Positions 16,707 to 57,976 of a stretch of 64,000 bases of DNA are shown piece after piece. The notes beneath the pieces were generated by a model, which saw only the letters and a program-made list of their open reading frames with translations, did not search any database and had not been told where the DNA came from. This stretch comes from Candidatus Bathyarchaeota archaeon (lineage in GTDB: Archaea; Thermoproteota; Bathyarchaeia; Bathyarchaeales; Bathycorpusculaceae). The first letter of the stretch is position 1. Every line of letters starts with the position of its first letter. Where the stretch lies: assembly GCA_013388895.1 (NCBI GenBank), contig JACAEK010000024.1:1-64000 (forward strand), given 5' to 3'. The position numbers and the translations under genes are program-made.

Positions 16707-17153
16707 TTGAAGAGACTTTACCCAAACCAGCCGATAGTAGGCGTCGGCGCAATAATCATCTGCAACGGTCAAATTTTGCTGGAAAAAAGAAAAAATGAGC
16801 CTGGACGAGGAAAATGGAGCATTCCAGGCGGTTTAGTGGATTTAGGCGAAAGCATAGAGCAAACAGTAAAACGAGAGGTGAAGGAGGAAACTGGACTTGA
16901 GGTTGAAAGACCCAAACTCGTTGATATTGTGGACAACATACTCAAAGATGAGAATGGAAAGATAAAGTATCATTTCGTCATAGTTGACTATTTTGTGAAA
17001 CTCGTTGGGGGCGTGCTCAAGGCTTCTAGCGATGCGCAGGAACTAAAATGGGCTCGATTAGATGAAGCAGAAAAGTATGATTTGACGAAAACTTTTAGAG
17101 CATTTTTTAGGAGAAACAAACAAAGGCTGAAAGAGTTTGATTCATGCCTTTGA
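16707..17153 (+). CDS. NUDIX hydrolase
   Basis: A 148-residue Nudix enzyme that would cleave a nucleoside diphosphate linked to another group; an ADP-ribose pyrophosphatase-like role is possible. The Nudix box is complete: GGLVDLGESIEQTVKREVKEE, including the R-E-x-x-E-E metal-binding core. Start is a TTG (16707) after a GGAAGAGG site. It lies downstream of the MacB-like permease, 27 bases after its stop, so may be read with it. A repeat element begins almost directly after its stop codon. Confidence 0.88.
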   Translation: MKRLYPNQPIVGVGAIIICNGQILLEKRKNEPGRGKWSIPGGLVDLGESIEQTVKREVKEETGLEVERPKLVDIVDNILKDENGKIKYHFVIVDYFVKLVGGVLKASSDAQELKWARLDEAEKYDLTKTFRAFFRRNKQRLKEFDSCL

Positions 17154-17176
17154 GAAAGAGTTCTCTTTGTCTCGTG

Positions 17177-17383
17177 GGTCTAGACCTCTTTTATGTATAG
17201 ATAACCTGAAGAATGTTCTGAATATCTGAAAGCGTCTAGAGTGCTTATCACGCTCCGAGCCTCGCTTCTCCAAATTTCTAAGGCTCAAAAATTGGCGGTA
17301 GATGTAAGCTAAGGCTTTTTGCATGGTATAGCGAATTTCATGTTATGCGAATCGGATGAATGCGGAAAAGTTATAGCTGAAAC
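17177..17383 (-). repeat. Repeat R1, copy A
   Basis: About 207 bp that match 57675-57881 at about 85% identity without a gap, in inverted orientation. Weak similarity continues to about 17158, next to the Nudix stop. Over the 51 codons from a shared ATG, the 25 differences fall 8, 9 and 8 on codon positions one, two and three, and this copy has two stops in that frame, so it does not behave as a conserved protein. A fully conserved core reads GGAGAAGCGAGGCTCGGAGC. Function unknown. Confidence 0.85.
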
Positions 17384-17401
17384 AAAGGAATTAATCAGAT
17401 T

Positions 17402-17816
17402 ATGGTAGGCTATGAAGAGGTAATATTGTCTGCTCTTGGAGTTGTGGGATATAGGAATTGTCACAACCTCTCTAGCTTACGTCTTTGATAAGCGGAAGCA
17501 AATTAAGTTTAGAGAGCAAGAATACAAGGAAATGCGGTATAAAGCCATGGTATTGCATATGAAGGTAATGCTCAAGCCAGATGACTTGAAATATATGCAA
17601 CTACGCCGACCAGATTTGAAGAACATGGAAGACGTAAAAAACGAAGTTGAAACTGAGTTATACAATTGTCTACTTTTTGCCTCAGATGATGTTATCAAAT
17701 CATTAAAAGAGTTTATTCTTAAACCTAACAATGTGACTTATGTCAAAACCGTTTTTGCTATGAGAAAGGACTGCTGGAACAAAAAAACCAATTTAAAAGC
17801 AGAGGAAATTCTATGA
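17402..17816 (+). pseudogene. Small hypothetical membrane-anchored protein, probably frameshifted
   Basis: The visible frame from 17436 encodes about 126 residues. It begins inside a hydrophobic segment (IGIVTTSLAYVF), followed by a charged helical domain (DKRKQIKFREQEYKEMRYK) and a helical C-terminus ending KAEEIL. An ATG at 17402 opens another frame, MVGYEEVILSALGVVG, which would complete the membrane helix if one base were missing near 17450. I read this as one gene of about 137 residues with an N-terminal anchor and a cytosolic domain. The family is not recognised. It is enclosed between repeats R1 and R2. Confidence 0.55.
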
Positions 17817-17900
17817 TTATCCATGTAAGACTCCTGTGTCCTTCCAGAAATCCAAAACCAGAAATTTTAATCAATTGTTTAAACTTCTCTCTCGAAACCC

Positions 17901-17978
17901 CGTGAAAAGAAGCCTAAATCAAGCTCCTTTAAAGTGGATTTTCCAAAGAAACTTGGATTATATATAGATTGAGCAAGT
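17901..17978 (+). repeat. Repeat R2, copy A, with hairpin
   Basis: 78 bp matching the reverse complement of 56943-57021. The flanks are nearly identical (four differences in about 60 positions), while the middle differs in sequence but keeps a hairpin: here TCCAA-AGAAAC-TTGGA (about 17942-17957). The hairpin is followed by ATTATATATAG and GATTGAGCAAGT, resembling a TATA box. A transcript reading rightwards would run into the end of the convergent UPF0145 gene. Confidence 0.8.
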
Positions 17979-17993
17979 TTTGAATTGTAAGGC

Positions 17994-18338
17994 TTATTCT
18001 TTTTTCTCTGTTGGTTTTGCTATGATTGCGGTTCCGTATGATGCGAAGACCGTGGCTGTGCCTTGAAGTATGTCGCTTGTTTCAAAATCTGCAGCGATAA
18101 CAGCATTAGCGCCCATTTCTCTTGCATTTTCGATAAGTCTGTTCAAAGATTCACGTCTAGCCTTTTCGCATTCTGAGCTGTAGGCTGTTACCTCTCCACC
18201 CAACATTCCTTCAATGCCAGCAATGAATTTTCCTCCAACGCCTCTAGTACGCACTGTTAAGCCATGAACTGTTCCTAAAACTTTAACTATCTCAAAGCCT
18301 GGCAGATTCGGCGTTGTAACAACTATTACTTCACTCAT
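17994..18338 (-). CDS. UPF0145 / YbjQ-family protein
   Basis: A 114-residue protein of the YbjQ (UPF0145) family, which forms homopentamers in known structures and is often described as heavy-metal-binding, without firm function. It starts at ATG 18338. Family-typical segments are VVTTPNLPGFEIVKVLG, the GG-x-x-x-Y-S/T region (GGEVTAYSSECEKAR) and MGANAVIAADFETSD. Single gene, convergent with repeat R2. Confidence 0.85.
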   Translation of the reverse strand: MSEVIVVTTPNLPGFEIVKVLGTVHGLTVRTRGVGGKFIAGIEGMLGGEVTAYSSECEKARRESLNRLIENAREMGANAVIAADFETSDILQGTATVFASYGTAIIAKPTEKKE

Positions 18339-21878: not shown

Positions 21879-21949
21879 CTTGCAAACATCCAAACCTAAT
21901 TTGACTTTAGGAAAGATAAATATACAACTAAATAACAATTGCTCTCCAA

Positions 21950-22046
21950 GGTTTAAGGGGAGCTGGGACTGTGACCTGGCTGAGAGGACAGCAGAAAGCG
22001 CTGTCGACCCGTAGAACCTGATCCAGGTAATACTGGCGGAGGGAAA
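21950..22046 (+). promoter_or_regulatory. TPP riboswitch (THI element)
   Basis: Conserved TPP aptamer: GGGG-AGC at 21957-21963, the pyrimidine-sensor CTGAGA at 21980-21985, and the pyrophosphate-sensor region from GACCCGTAGAACCTGATC (about 22006-22023) into GGTAATACTGGCGGAGGGA. The gene's ribosome binding site, GGAGGG (22038-22043), belongs to the 3' side of the aptamer, eight bases before the thiT ATG. Ligand binding would therefore hide it, implying translational control. A TATA-like AAATATA lies upstream at about 21918-21924. Confidence 0.93.
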
Positions 22047-22050
22047 AAAC

Positions 22051-22614
22051 ATGAATGAAACTAAAACTAGATTCAACACCAAAGTTCTTGCAGAAATTGC
22101 AGTTTTTGCAGCTCTTTCAGCAGTATTGTATATTCTGCGCCCTTACACGCTTCCATACGGTGGCTCAGTAACCTTAGGTAGCATGGTTCCAGTAATGTGG
22201 CTGTCCATGAGAAGAGGCATATACGCTGGAATTGTGTCAGCAGCGATTTTCGGCATTTTAGCACTCCTCATCGATGTTACATTTCTTGGCGCCGCAAGCG
22301 TCATTGCGACTCCCGTACAGGTCATCCTCGAATATCCAATAGCCTTTGGAGTGCTCGGATTAGCAGGAATTTTCCACAAAAAAACTGTAGCCTTCGCAAT
22401 AGCAGGAGTAGGCATCAGCATATTCATCAAATTCGTGATACACTACCTTGTAGGCGTCTTCGTCTGGTATTATGTATACGCGTTTCCTCCAGAATGGGGA
22501 CAATATCTTTGGCCAGCCATCTACAACGGCAGCTTCCTCTTAGTGGAATTCATCATAAGTGCAATACTCATCGTCATCCTCGTGAAAAGGGGAACATTGG
22601 AATACGCTCTCTAG
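22051..22614 (+). CDS. thiT: Thiamine ECF transporter S component
   Basis: A 187-residue membrane protein with about six helices that binds thiamine for an energy-coupling-factor transporter. The N-terminal EIAVFAALSAVLYILRP, the GGSVTLGSMVPVMWLSMRRG loop (typical of ThiT) and the aromatic VHYLVGV-F-W segment support this. Control by a TPP riboswitch directly upstream makes the substrate assignment strong. The shared ECF ATPases and EcfT are not in this window; two other S-component-like genes (28406, 37684) could use the same module. Confidence 0.9.
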   Translation: MNETKTRFNTKVLAEIAVFAALSAVLYILRPYTLPYGGSVTLGSMVPVMWLSMRRGIYAGIVSAAIFGILALLIDVTFLGAASVIATPVQVILEYPIAFGVLGLAGIFHKKTVAFAIAGVGISIFIKFVIHYLVGVFVWYYVYAFPPEWGQYLWPAIYNGSFLLVEFIISAILIVILVKRGTLEYAL

Positions 22615-56737: not shown

Positions 56738-57162
56738 AATGGAATCCTCCTAATCATGAAGTGATGGCGCTCTAAAGACTGATAGACTAGACTAACAGAA
56801 CAGTGCAGTATTGCTTACAGGCTTGGAAACAAGATCATCAGAGCACTCACCTTTTAAGTAAACGAGCTCTACGTCATTATGCGTTTCTGCTTTATCAACT
56901 TTTTCATAGTAGCTTCAGAGTTAACCCAGATATAGGTTGACTACTTGCTCAATCTATATATAATCGGAGAAATGCTCCGAAAATCCACTTTAACGGAGCC
57001 TGATTTGGGCTTCTTTTGACGGATTCTTAGTGGAGAAGTTTAAGCAATTGATTAAGGCTCAAGGGGGAAAGTTTTATCCAAGAAACCCTCTTTTTGCGCT
57101 GTTGCGGGATGTGAAAAGTTTAAAATACTGTGGACTGGAAGAAATAGGATTAGGATTCTAAG
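56738..57162. other. Intergenic stretch around repeat R2
   Basis: 425 bases without a recognised gene. It holds the MFS ribosome binding site (56746-56750), repeat R2 copy B (56943-57021) and, at 57119-57128, a TTTAAAATAC likely to be the TATA box of the oxidase-like gene starting at 57163. I see no tRNA or other structured RNA in the rest. Confidence 0.5.
56943..57021 (-). repeat. Repeat R2, copy B, with hairpin
   Basis: 79 bp, the reverse complement of repeat copy A at 17901-17978. Outside the hairpin four of about 60 positions differ. The stem is TCGGAG-CATTT-CTCCGA here, against TCCAA/TTGGA in copy A, so both strands changed together. The conserved TATATATA side faces the MFS gene at 56737; if it is a promoter, the transcript would have a leader of about 180 bases. 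Confidence 0.8.
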
Positions 57163-57627
57163 ATGGATTACACGCAACCTCCTCCGCTCACTGAAGGAGA
57201 AGTCGAATCGCCCCTCAAAGAGGCTCGGACTGCAAGGTTCTGTAGCCTCAACAGAGATGGAACTATACATGCAGCACCTGTTTGGTTCAGATATGAAAAC
57301 AGGCAAATCACTATAATAACGCCAGCAGCCAGCCGAAAAGCTAAGAATGTTAAACGCAACAGTAAGGTTTCAGTTCTTATTGACATCGAGCAGGCTTCGC
57401 CGAGGGCAGTACTAATTTACGGTAGGGCAGAATTGCGGTATCCAAAATCACGTGACGAGTATCTGGCAGAGGCAACAAGATTATATGAGAAGTATATGCC
57501 AAGAGAAAGGGCTGAACGCACGGCTCTAGGCATGTACCAGATAACACACGGGGTTGAAATCATAGTGAAGCCAGAGCGCATCGTATCGTTTGACTATCGC
57601 AAAGATACCATGTATCCGACTGCTTGA
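57163..57627 (+). CDS. Pyridoxamine 5'-phosphate oxidase-family protein
   Basis: A 154-residue split-barrel flavin- or F420-binding protein. The N-terminal ARFCSLNRDGTIHAAPVWFRYENRQITI, in pieces, and KNVKRNSKVSVLIDIEQ are typical of the PPOX/FDR family of archaea and actinobacteria. It could use FMN or F420 as cofactor; true PNPOx activity is not implied. The gene is enclosed by repeats R2 and R1, as is the unrelated gene at 17402. Confidence 0.82.
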   Translation: MDYTQPPPLTEGEVESPLKEARTARFCSLNRDGTIHAAPVWFRYENRQITIITPAASRKAKNVKRNSKVSVLIDIEQASPRAVLIYGRAELRYPKSRDEYLAEATRLYEKYMPRERAERTALGMYQITHGVEIIVKPERIVSFDYRKDTMYPTA

Positions 57628-57674: not shown

Positions 57675-57881
57675 GGTTCAGCTATAACTTTTCCGCATTT
57701 ATCCGATTCGCATAACATGAAATTCGCTATGCCATGCAAAAAGCCTAAGCCTACATATATCGCCAAATTTCAAGCCTTAGAAGTTTGGAGAAGCGAGGCT
57801 CGGAGCGTGGTAAGCACTCCAAACATTTTTAGATATTACGAAGATACTTCGGGTTACCTATTTATAAGGGGGGGTCTAGGC
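57675..57881 (+). repeat. Repeat R1, copy B
   Basis: About 207 bp, the inverted partner of 17177-17383 (about 85% identity, no gap). Weak similarity extends to about 57901. An ATG at 57717 opens a 56-codon frame to a TGA at 57885, but copy A has two stops in that frame and changes are evenly spread over codon positions, so I do not call a gene. A run of eight G closes the element. It fills most of the 349-base space between the oxidase-like gene and the permease; the remaining 57902-57976 holds only an A/T-rich promoter-like GATTTAATA (about 57930-57938). Confidence 0.85.
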
Positions 57882-57976
57882 TTCTGAGAGCAGAGAGAAG
57901 CGCATTCATTAGAGTTTGATGCGTTAAGATTTAATAGCATGACGTCTTTAGAACAGTTTTCTGAATCGGTGACAAA

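Follow-up and report, generated by a model that had tools for sequence, protein, structure and literature searches.

The R2 hairpin probably marks the right-hand end of the members of a family of cassettes that are small, non-autonomous, cargo-bearing and probably mobile, whose folded single-strand end would be recognised by an enzyme acting in trans that inserts the unit at a dispersed motif, M. Two R2 copies, A and B, lie in the window, that is, the whole 64,000-nt stretch of Candidatus Bathyarchaeota DNA analysed here, and R2 ends a unit of the form R1–cargo–R2 of 767–904 bp (767 bp in A, 904 bp in B). In the proposed layout, the left part of M, ending in TATAWATAG, would be followed by R1 (~180 nt, with the left hairpin and a promoter-like end, P), a variable cargo gene, R2 (~105 nt, with the right hairpin), TATATATAG and the right part of M. 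Most likely, the near-terminal hairpins, folded in single-stranded DNA, would have been the recognition signal of an enzyme supplied in trans, and the unit would have been inserted at the TATA-like core of M, with no long target copied. For the R1–R2 units, the mobility, the single-strand mechanism and the enzyme are what we infer rather than what was observed; the copies show their age, some of their parts having decayed, and they may be fossils.

Little was found on mobile DNA in Bathyarchaeota in the literature searched. Cassettes in which the genes vary between constant non-coding ends, and which dock at a single dispersed motif, would, if true, represent a concrete route of gene exchange in these archaea. 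Moreover, a hairpin with paired changes provides a testable hook for a single-strand mechanism that operates without a known transposase.

Anatomy of the R1–cargo–R2 units

R2 was found in eight copies in three Bathyarchaeota genomes, six of them beyond the window pair. The source genome (G000, 1.58 Mb) contains five (A to E), and among 60 relatives searched one copy was present in G003 (G3) and two in G034 (G34 and G34b). A covariance model applied to 163 genomes of the order recovered the same eight copies and none outside these three genomes, and no copies were found in the viral contigs searched with DNA patterns. Five of the eight R2 copies (A, B, D, G3 and G34) are accompanied by R1 at the other side of the unit, in the same relative orientation and about 500–900 bp upstream.

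The constant non-coding ends frame unrelated cargo genes (Table 1 for A and B). The cargo of C is a DUF4760 protein and that of D a similar broken ORF; G3 carries a GNAT acetyltransferase, and G34 a 248-aa protein without family assignment. Contigs C49 and C41 probably contain the two halves of copy E, as judged from their common cargo. The partly open reverse-strand frames of both ends were considered as coding sequence and rejected: substitutions in R1 have no codon periodicity in codon-position counts, and the frame in R2 is interrupted by in-frame stops in most copies (translation by eye).

The left end is the less regular one. A hairpin a few bases inside it is clear in G34 (7 bp) and B (5 bp) and weak in A and G3, and the right hairpin lies one or two bases inside TATATATAG. 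D and E/C49 have a full M and then a truncated R1, and in C no R1 can be recognised; the left boundary therefore varies among the units. When compared as inverted repeats, the element ends match at 5–6 of 20 positions; they are therefore not terminal inverted repeats, unlike the ends of a MITE. No transposase or recombinase was seen inside the copies.

The last 23 nt of R1 constitute P (AATGCGGAAAAGTTATAGCTGAA, window 17359–17381), which is present in exact or near-exact form in numerous genera of the order; an R1 query finds matches in 17 genera, most of them at P. It is commonly located some tens of bases upstream of a start codon, the genes downstream being unrelated, and by its sequence and position P looks like the promoter of the cargo. 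P also occurs inside the 3' end of a small zinc-ribbon gene, and when translated it gives the C-terminal residues KCGKVIAE of such a protein. Several P copies are preceded by a common stretch resembling AAAACTTTACCCCAACCAACC, another dispersed intergenic repeat.

Table 1. Positions in the window of the parts of elements A and B and of their left flanks.
Feature	Position	Strand	Remarks
Left half of M (GTCTAGACCTCTTTTATGTATAG) flanking element A	17171..17200	+	p=0.0006 against the M weight matrix; orthologous G001 site has a decayed M and no element
R1, left end of element A	17201..17381	+	Non-coding; ends in P, a promoter-like cargo start
Cargo ORF of element A	17436..17816	+	126 aa, unassigned in Pfam
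R2, right end of element A	17867..17967	+	Non-coding; 82-89% identity to other copies; covariance-model match 17867-17972
R2 hairpin of A (5 bp)	arms 17942-17946 / 17953-17957	+	TCCAA/TTGGA
TATATATAG, terminal core of element A	17959..17967	+	Common to motif M
Left half of M flanking element B	57858..57890	-	0/20,000 random stretches score as high; decayed M without element beside the orthologous G001 permease gene
R1, left end of element B	57677..57857	-	87% identity to R1 of A over 194 nt
Cargo gene of element B	57163..57627	+	Pyridoxamine 5'-phosphate oxidase-like (PF01243); opposed to R1-to-R2 direction
R2, right end of element B	56954..57055	-	Covariance-model match 56949-57055
R2 hairpin of B (6 bp)	arms 56980-56975 / 56969-56964	-	TCGGAG/CTCCGA

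Pairing in the R2 hairpin

The sequence-only reading had described two R2 copies matching at about 56 of 60 positions outside a centre that differs in its letters yet pairs in both. The stems and their coordinates were confirmed, and the count outside the centre is 59 of 63 (37 of 41 to the left, 22 of 22 to the right), with homology between A and B reaching further left, up to 17867 and 57055, respectively. The pattern GCTCCNTTAAAGTGGATTTTC occurs twice in the window, against 0.03 expected. Folded as single-stranded DNA, copy B outperforms 198 of 200 shuffled versions (z -3.3), and copy A is by itself no better than expected by chance (z -0.6). The case for a kept structure therefore rests on the comparison of copies.

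In this comparison, with the six additional copies included, the stem is able to form at the same position in all eight, even in the decayed G34b. Read on the R1-to-R2 strand, G3 has the stem of B, C and D have TCCGAA/TTCGGA, and E, G34 and G34b have TTGGAG with CTCCGG or CTCCGA. In the seven aligned copies, 93.9% of the stem cells are paired, a value which falls to 18–65% when the partner strand is slid by 1–3 columns, and three stem pairs are changed on both sides. In a drift simulation with random substitution of an equal number of stem bases, as many pairs were kept in 0.1–3% of trials. The one-sided changes give U.G on the R1-to-R2 strand, and that strand is therefore slightly favoured as the folded one. 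No double changes were seen in a further intramolecular helix, which lies at the inner edge of R2. In the hairpin, the double changes amount essentially to one split, which sets C and D apart from the rest, with A intermediate.

The same pattern may have arisen by mutation instead of selection. At a quasi-palindrome, template switching transfers changes between the arms and may turn the loop around, which can give matched arm changes and loop inversion without any selection (PMC8794818), whether the units are inherited or mobile. The three doubly changed pairs that separate C and D from the other copies, with no stepwise intermediates sampled, are in line with such an origin. So are the loops, which seem inverted between the groups (TTT-like in one, AAA in the other), a pattern that homogenisation of the arms and inversion of the loop would be expected to leave (PMC8794818; PMC8604942). 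However, a hairpin kept in the same place in eight of eight copies, with one-sided changes that retain U.G pairs on a single strand, is less readily explained in this way, and we hold an origin by mutation to be rather unlikely. The inference of selection on structure, made earlier from two copies, remains plausible, but because the double changes represent very few events and template switching can give the same pattern, selection on the stem is likely rather than proven.

R2 might also be a functional RNA that belongs to the transcript of the cassette, as its 3' untranslated region, as a signal for processing or as a small RNA. A, C, D, G3 and G34 have R2 downstream of their cargo gene, R2 is highly conserved, and the tolerance of U.G on the R1-to-R2 strand agrees with an RNA. 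Nevertheless, R2 is kept in B, where the cargo is oppositely directed, and it is confined to three of the 163 genomes searched. The Rfam search gave no match at R2, its sole match being a TPP riboswitch (RF00059, 66 bits; window 21946–22062), which overlaps the start of ORF 22051–22614 and is a separate observation, made here in an archaeon. No terminator-like site (a GC-rich stem followed by a T run) was found in 17100–18100. With the B cargo gene pointing the other way, this speaks against the terminator that had also been proposed, and a functional RNA in general appears improbable.

Motif M, unit flanks and element-free sites

Reading R2 as a cassette end gains from the surroundings of the units, which sit inside M (CTAGACCCCCCTTATAAATAG followed by ATTGAACTT), an intergenic motif of ~45 nt present in roughly 40 copies. 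M was counted 38 times in G000, 21 times in G001 and 44 times in G006, with no match to the reversed control in these three genomes, and 0–9 times in other relatives. Its variants are genus-specific and belong to two genera; the G000 contigs that carry it include C9, C11, C27, C30, C31 and C46. Tandem pairs of M, 65–70 nt apart, were observed in G000 (C46) and G001 (C1).

The flanks of most units resemble this motif. Left flanks match M at p <=0.002 in A, B, D, E/C49 and G34, and right flanks at p <=0.01 in A, B, C, D, E and G34b. The right flank of G34 does not match (p 0.23), nor does the left flank of G3 (p 0.49), the right flank of which is marginal (p 0.06). With regard to a target duplication, which PATEs lack, TATAWATAG is found at both sides of the units, the two copies being identical only in G3; the right one possibly belongs to the element itself. 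In the sister species G001, the orthologous left flanks contain M without a unit, intact at D and decayed at A and B. These empty sites were compared by eye, with the C run of M varying in length; at A, ~20 nt of the right flank are also similar, and this is the only empty site that resembles both flanks. The M flanks of the units, along with element-free M in G001, point to insertion into pre-existing M sites. Of the roles suggested for the hairpin by the sequence-only reading, the transposon end is the one best supported, by the anatomy of the units and by these element-free sites.

The DNA beside the amino-acid permease gene, where element B lies, holds different inserted genes in G035 (C6) and G006 (C1) and none in G001 (C19). 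This locus is possibly an insertion hot spot.

The sequence TATATATA directly after the hairpin of A had been proposed as a promoter, in which case the hairpin would be an operator or a leader. It does resemble an archaeal TATA box, and M, with the same core, occurs upstream of serS, between Pcc1 and serS, in G000, G006 and G035, being absent there in G022. However, TATATATAG, which follows the R2 hairpin, belongs to a core found also in M, and the gene downstream of A is convergent (17994–18338, minus strand). M itself is mostly intergenic, in either orientation relative to its neighbours, and often faces a convergent gene; on this gene context it was rejected as a general mRNA promoter. Moreover, at the serS locus a separate conserved promoter-like stretch, GGTTAAATA, is closer to the gene than M. 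The promoter proposal is weakened by these observations, and we regard it as highly improbable.

Enzyme searches and known systems

The cassette reading assumes an enzyme encoded elsewhere. A Y1 HUH transposase was found in none of five genomes (G000, G001, G003, G034 and G006; MAGs 86–98% complete), in which the positive controls were detected. No TnpB domain exceeded the cut-off in eight genomes, with sub-threshold matches only in G034 and G024, and none of the eight R2 copies, from the search of 163 genomes of the order, was seen to lie beside a transposase. Since neither Y1 nor TnpB was found over the cut-off, membership in PATE or IS200/IS605 is not claimed.

The palindrome-associated transposable elements (PATEs) of Haloquadratum walsbyi (PMC3119063) are similar in the lack of terminal inverted repeats, the palindromes near the termini, the absence of a transposase gene of their own, the divergence of copies and the short target on the 5' side. 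The units described here differ in carrying unrelated whole genes, in sitting in a long dispersed host motif, in ends that were not matched to any IS605-type transposon and in a left palindrome that is weak in some copies. IS200/IS605 and REP/TnpA-REP elements (PMC6006769) resemble the units in their subterminal hairpins and in a cleavage that, in the units too, would occur close to a short constant sequence. In A, B, E, G3 and G34b, GTGG occurs 5' of the R2 hairpin and resembles the GT[AG]G tetranucleotide of REP (PMC6006769), but a few bases separate it from the foot of the stem, and C, D and G34 lack it. No consistent canonical pairing of a guide tetranucleotide with TATAG was seen in folds, nor any by eye.

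Integron gene cassettes, which are also known from archaeal MAGs (PMC9668308), likewise comprise one gene each and a hairpin site at its 3' end, with variable cargo and insertion at a defined site. In contrast, the units are single and not arranged in tandem arrays, have a conserved R1 at the left, and their left junctions are of the TATAG/RTAACC type, not G/TTRRRY, with no attC-type core there; no integron integrase was seen beside the copies. The broader proposal of an undescribed archaeal gene-cassette system, in which a single-strand recombinase would insert individual genes, bounded by R1 on one side and by R2 with its terminal hairpin on the other, and M would be a genome-wide docking site, is one to which we give little credence.

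Rolling-circle elements of the Helitron and IS91 type have a hairpin within a few bases of the 3' end, carry captured genes, lack inverted repeats and insert at an AT-rich target. The units agree with them in each of these respects, their cargo genes included, but lack a CTRR end, and no Rep/HUH gene was seen within the copies. Taken together, the absence of inverted repeats, the hairpins near the ends, the variable cargo and the fixed target give the R1–R2 units a resemblance to elements processed as single strands, such as PATEs and IS200/IS605.
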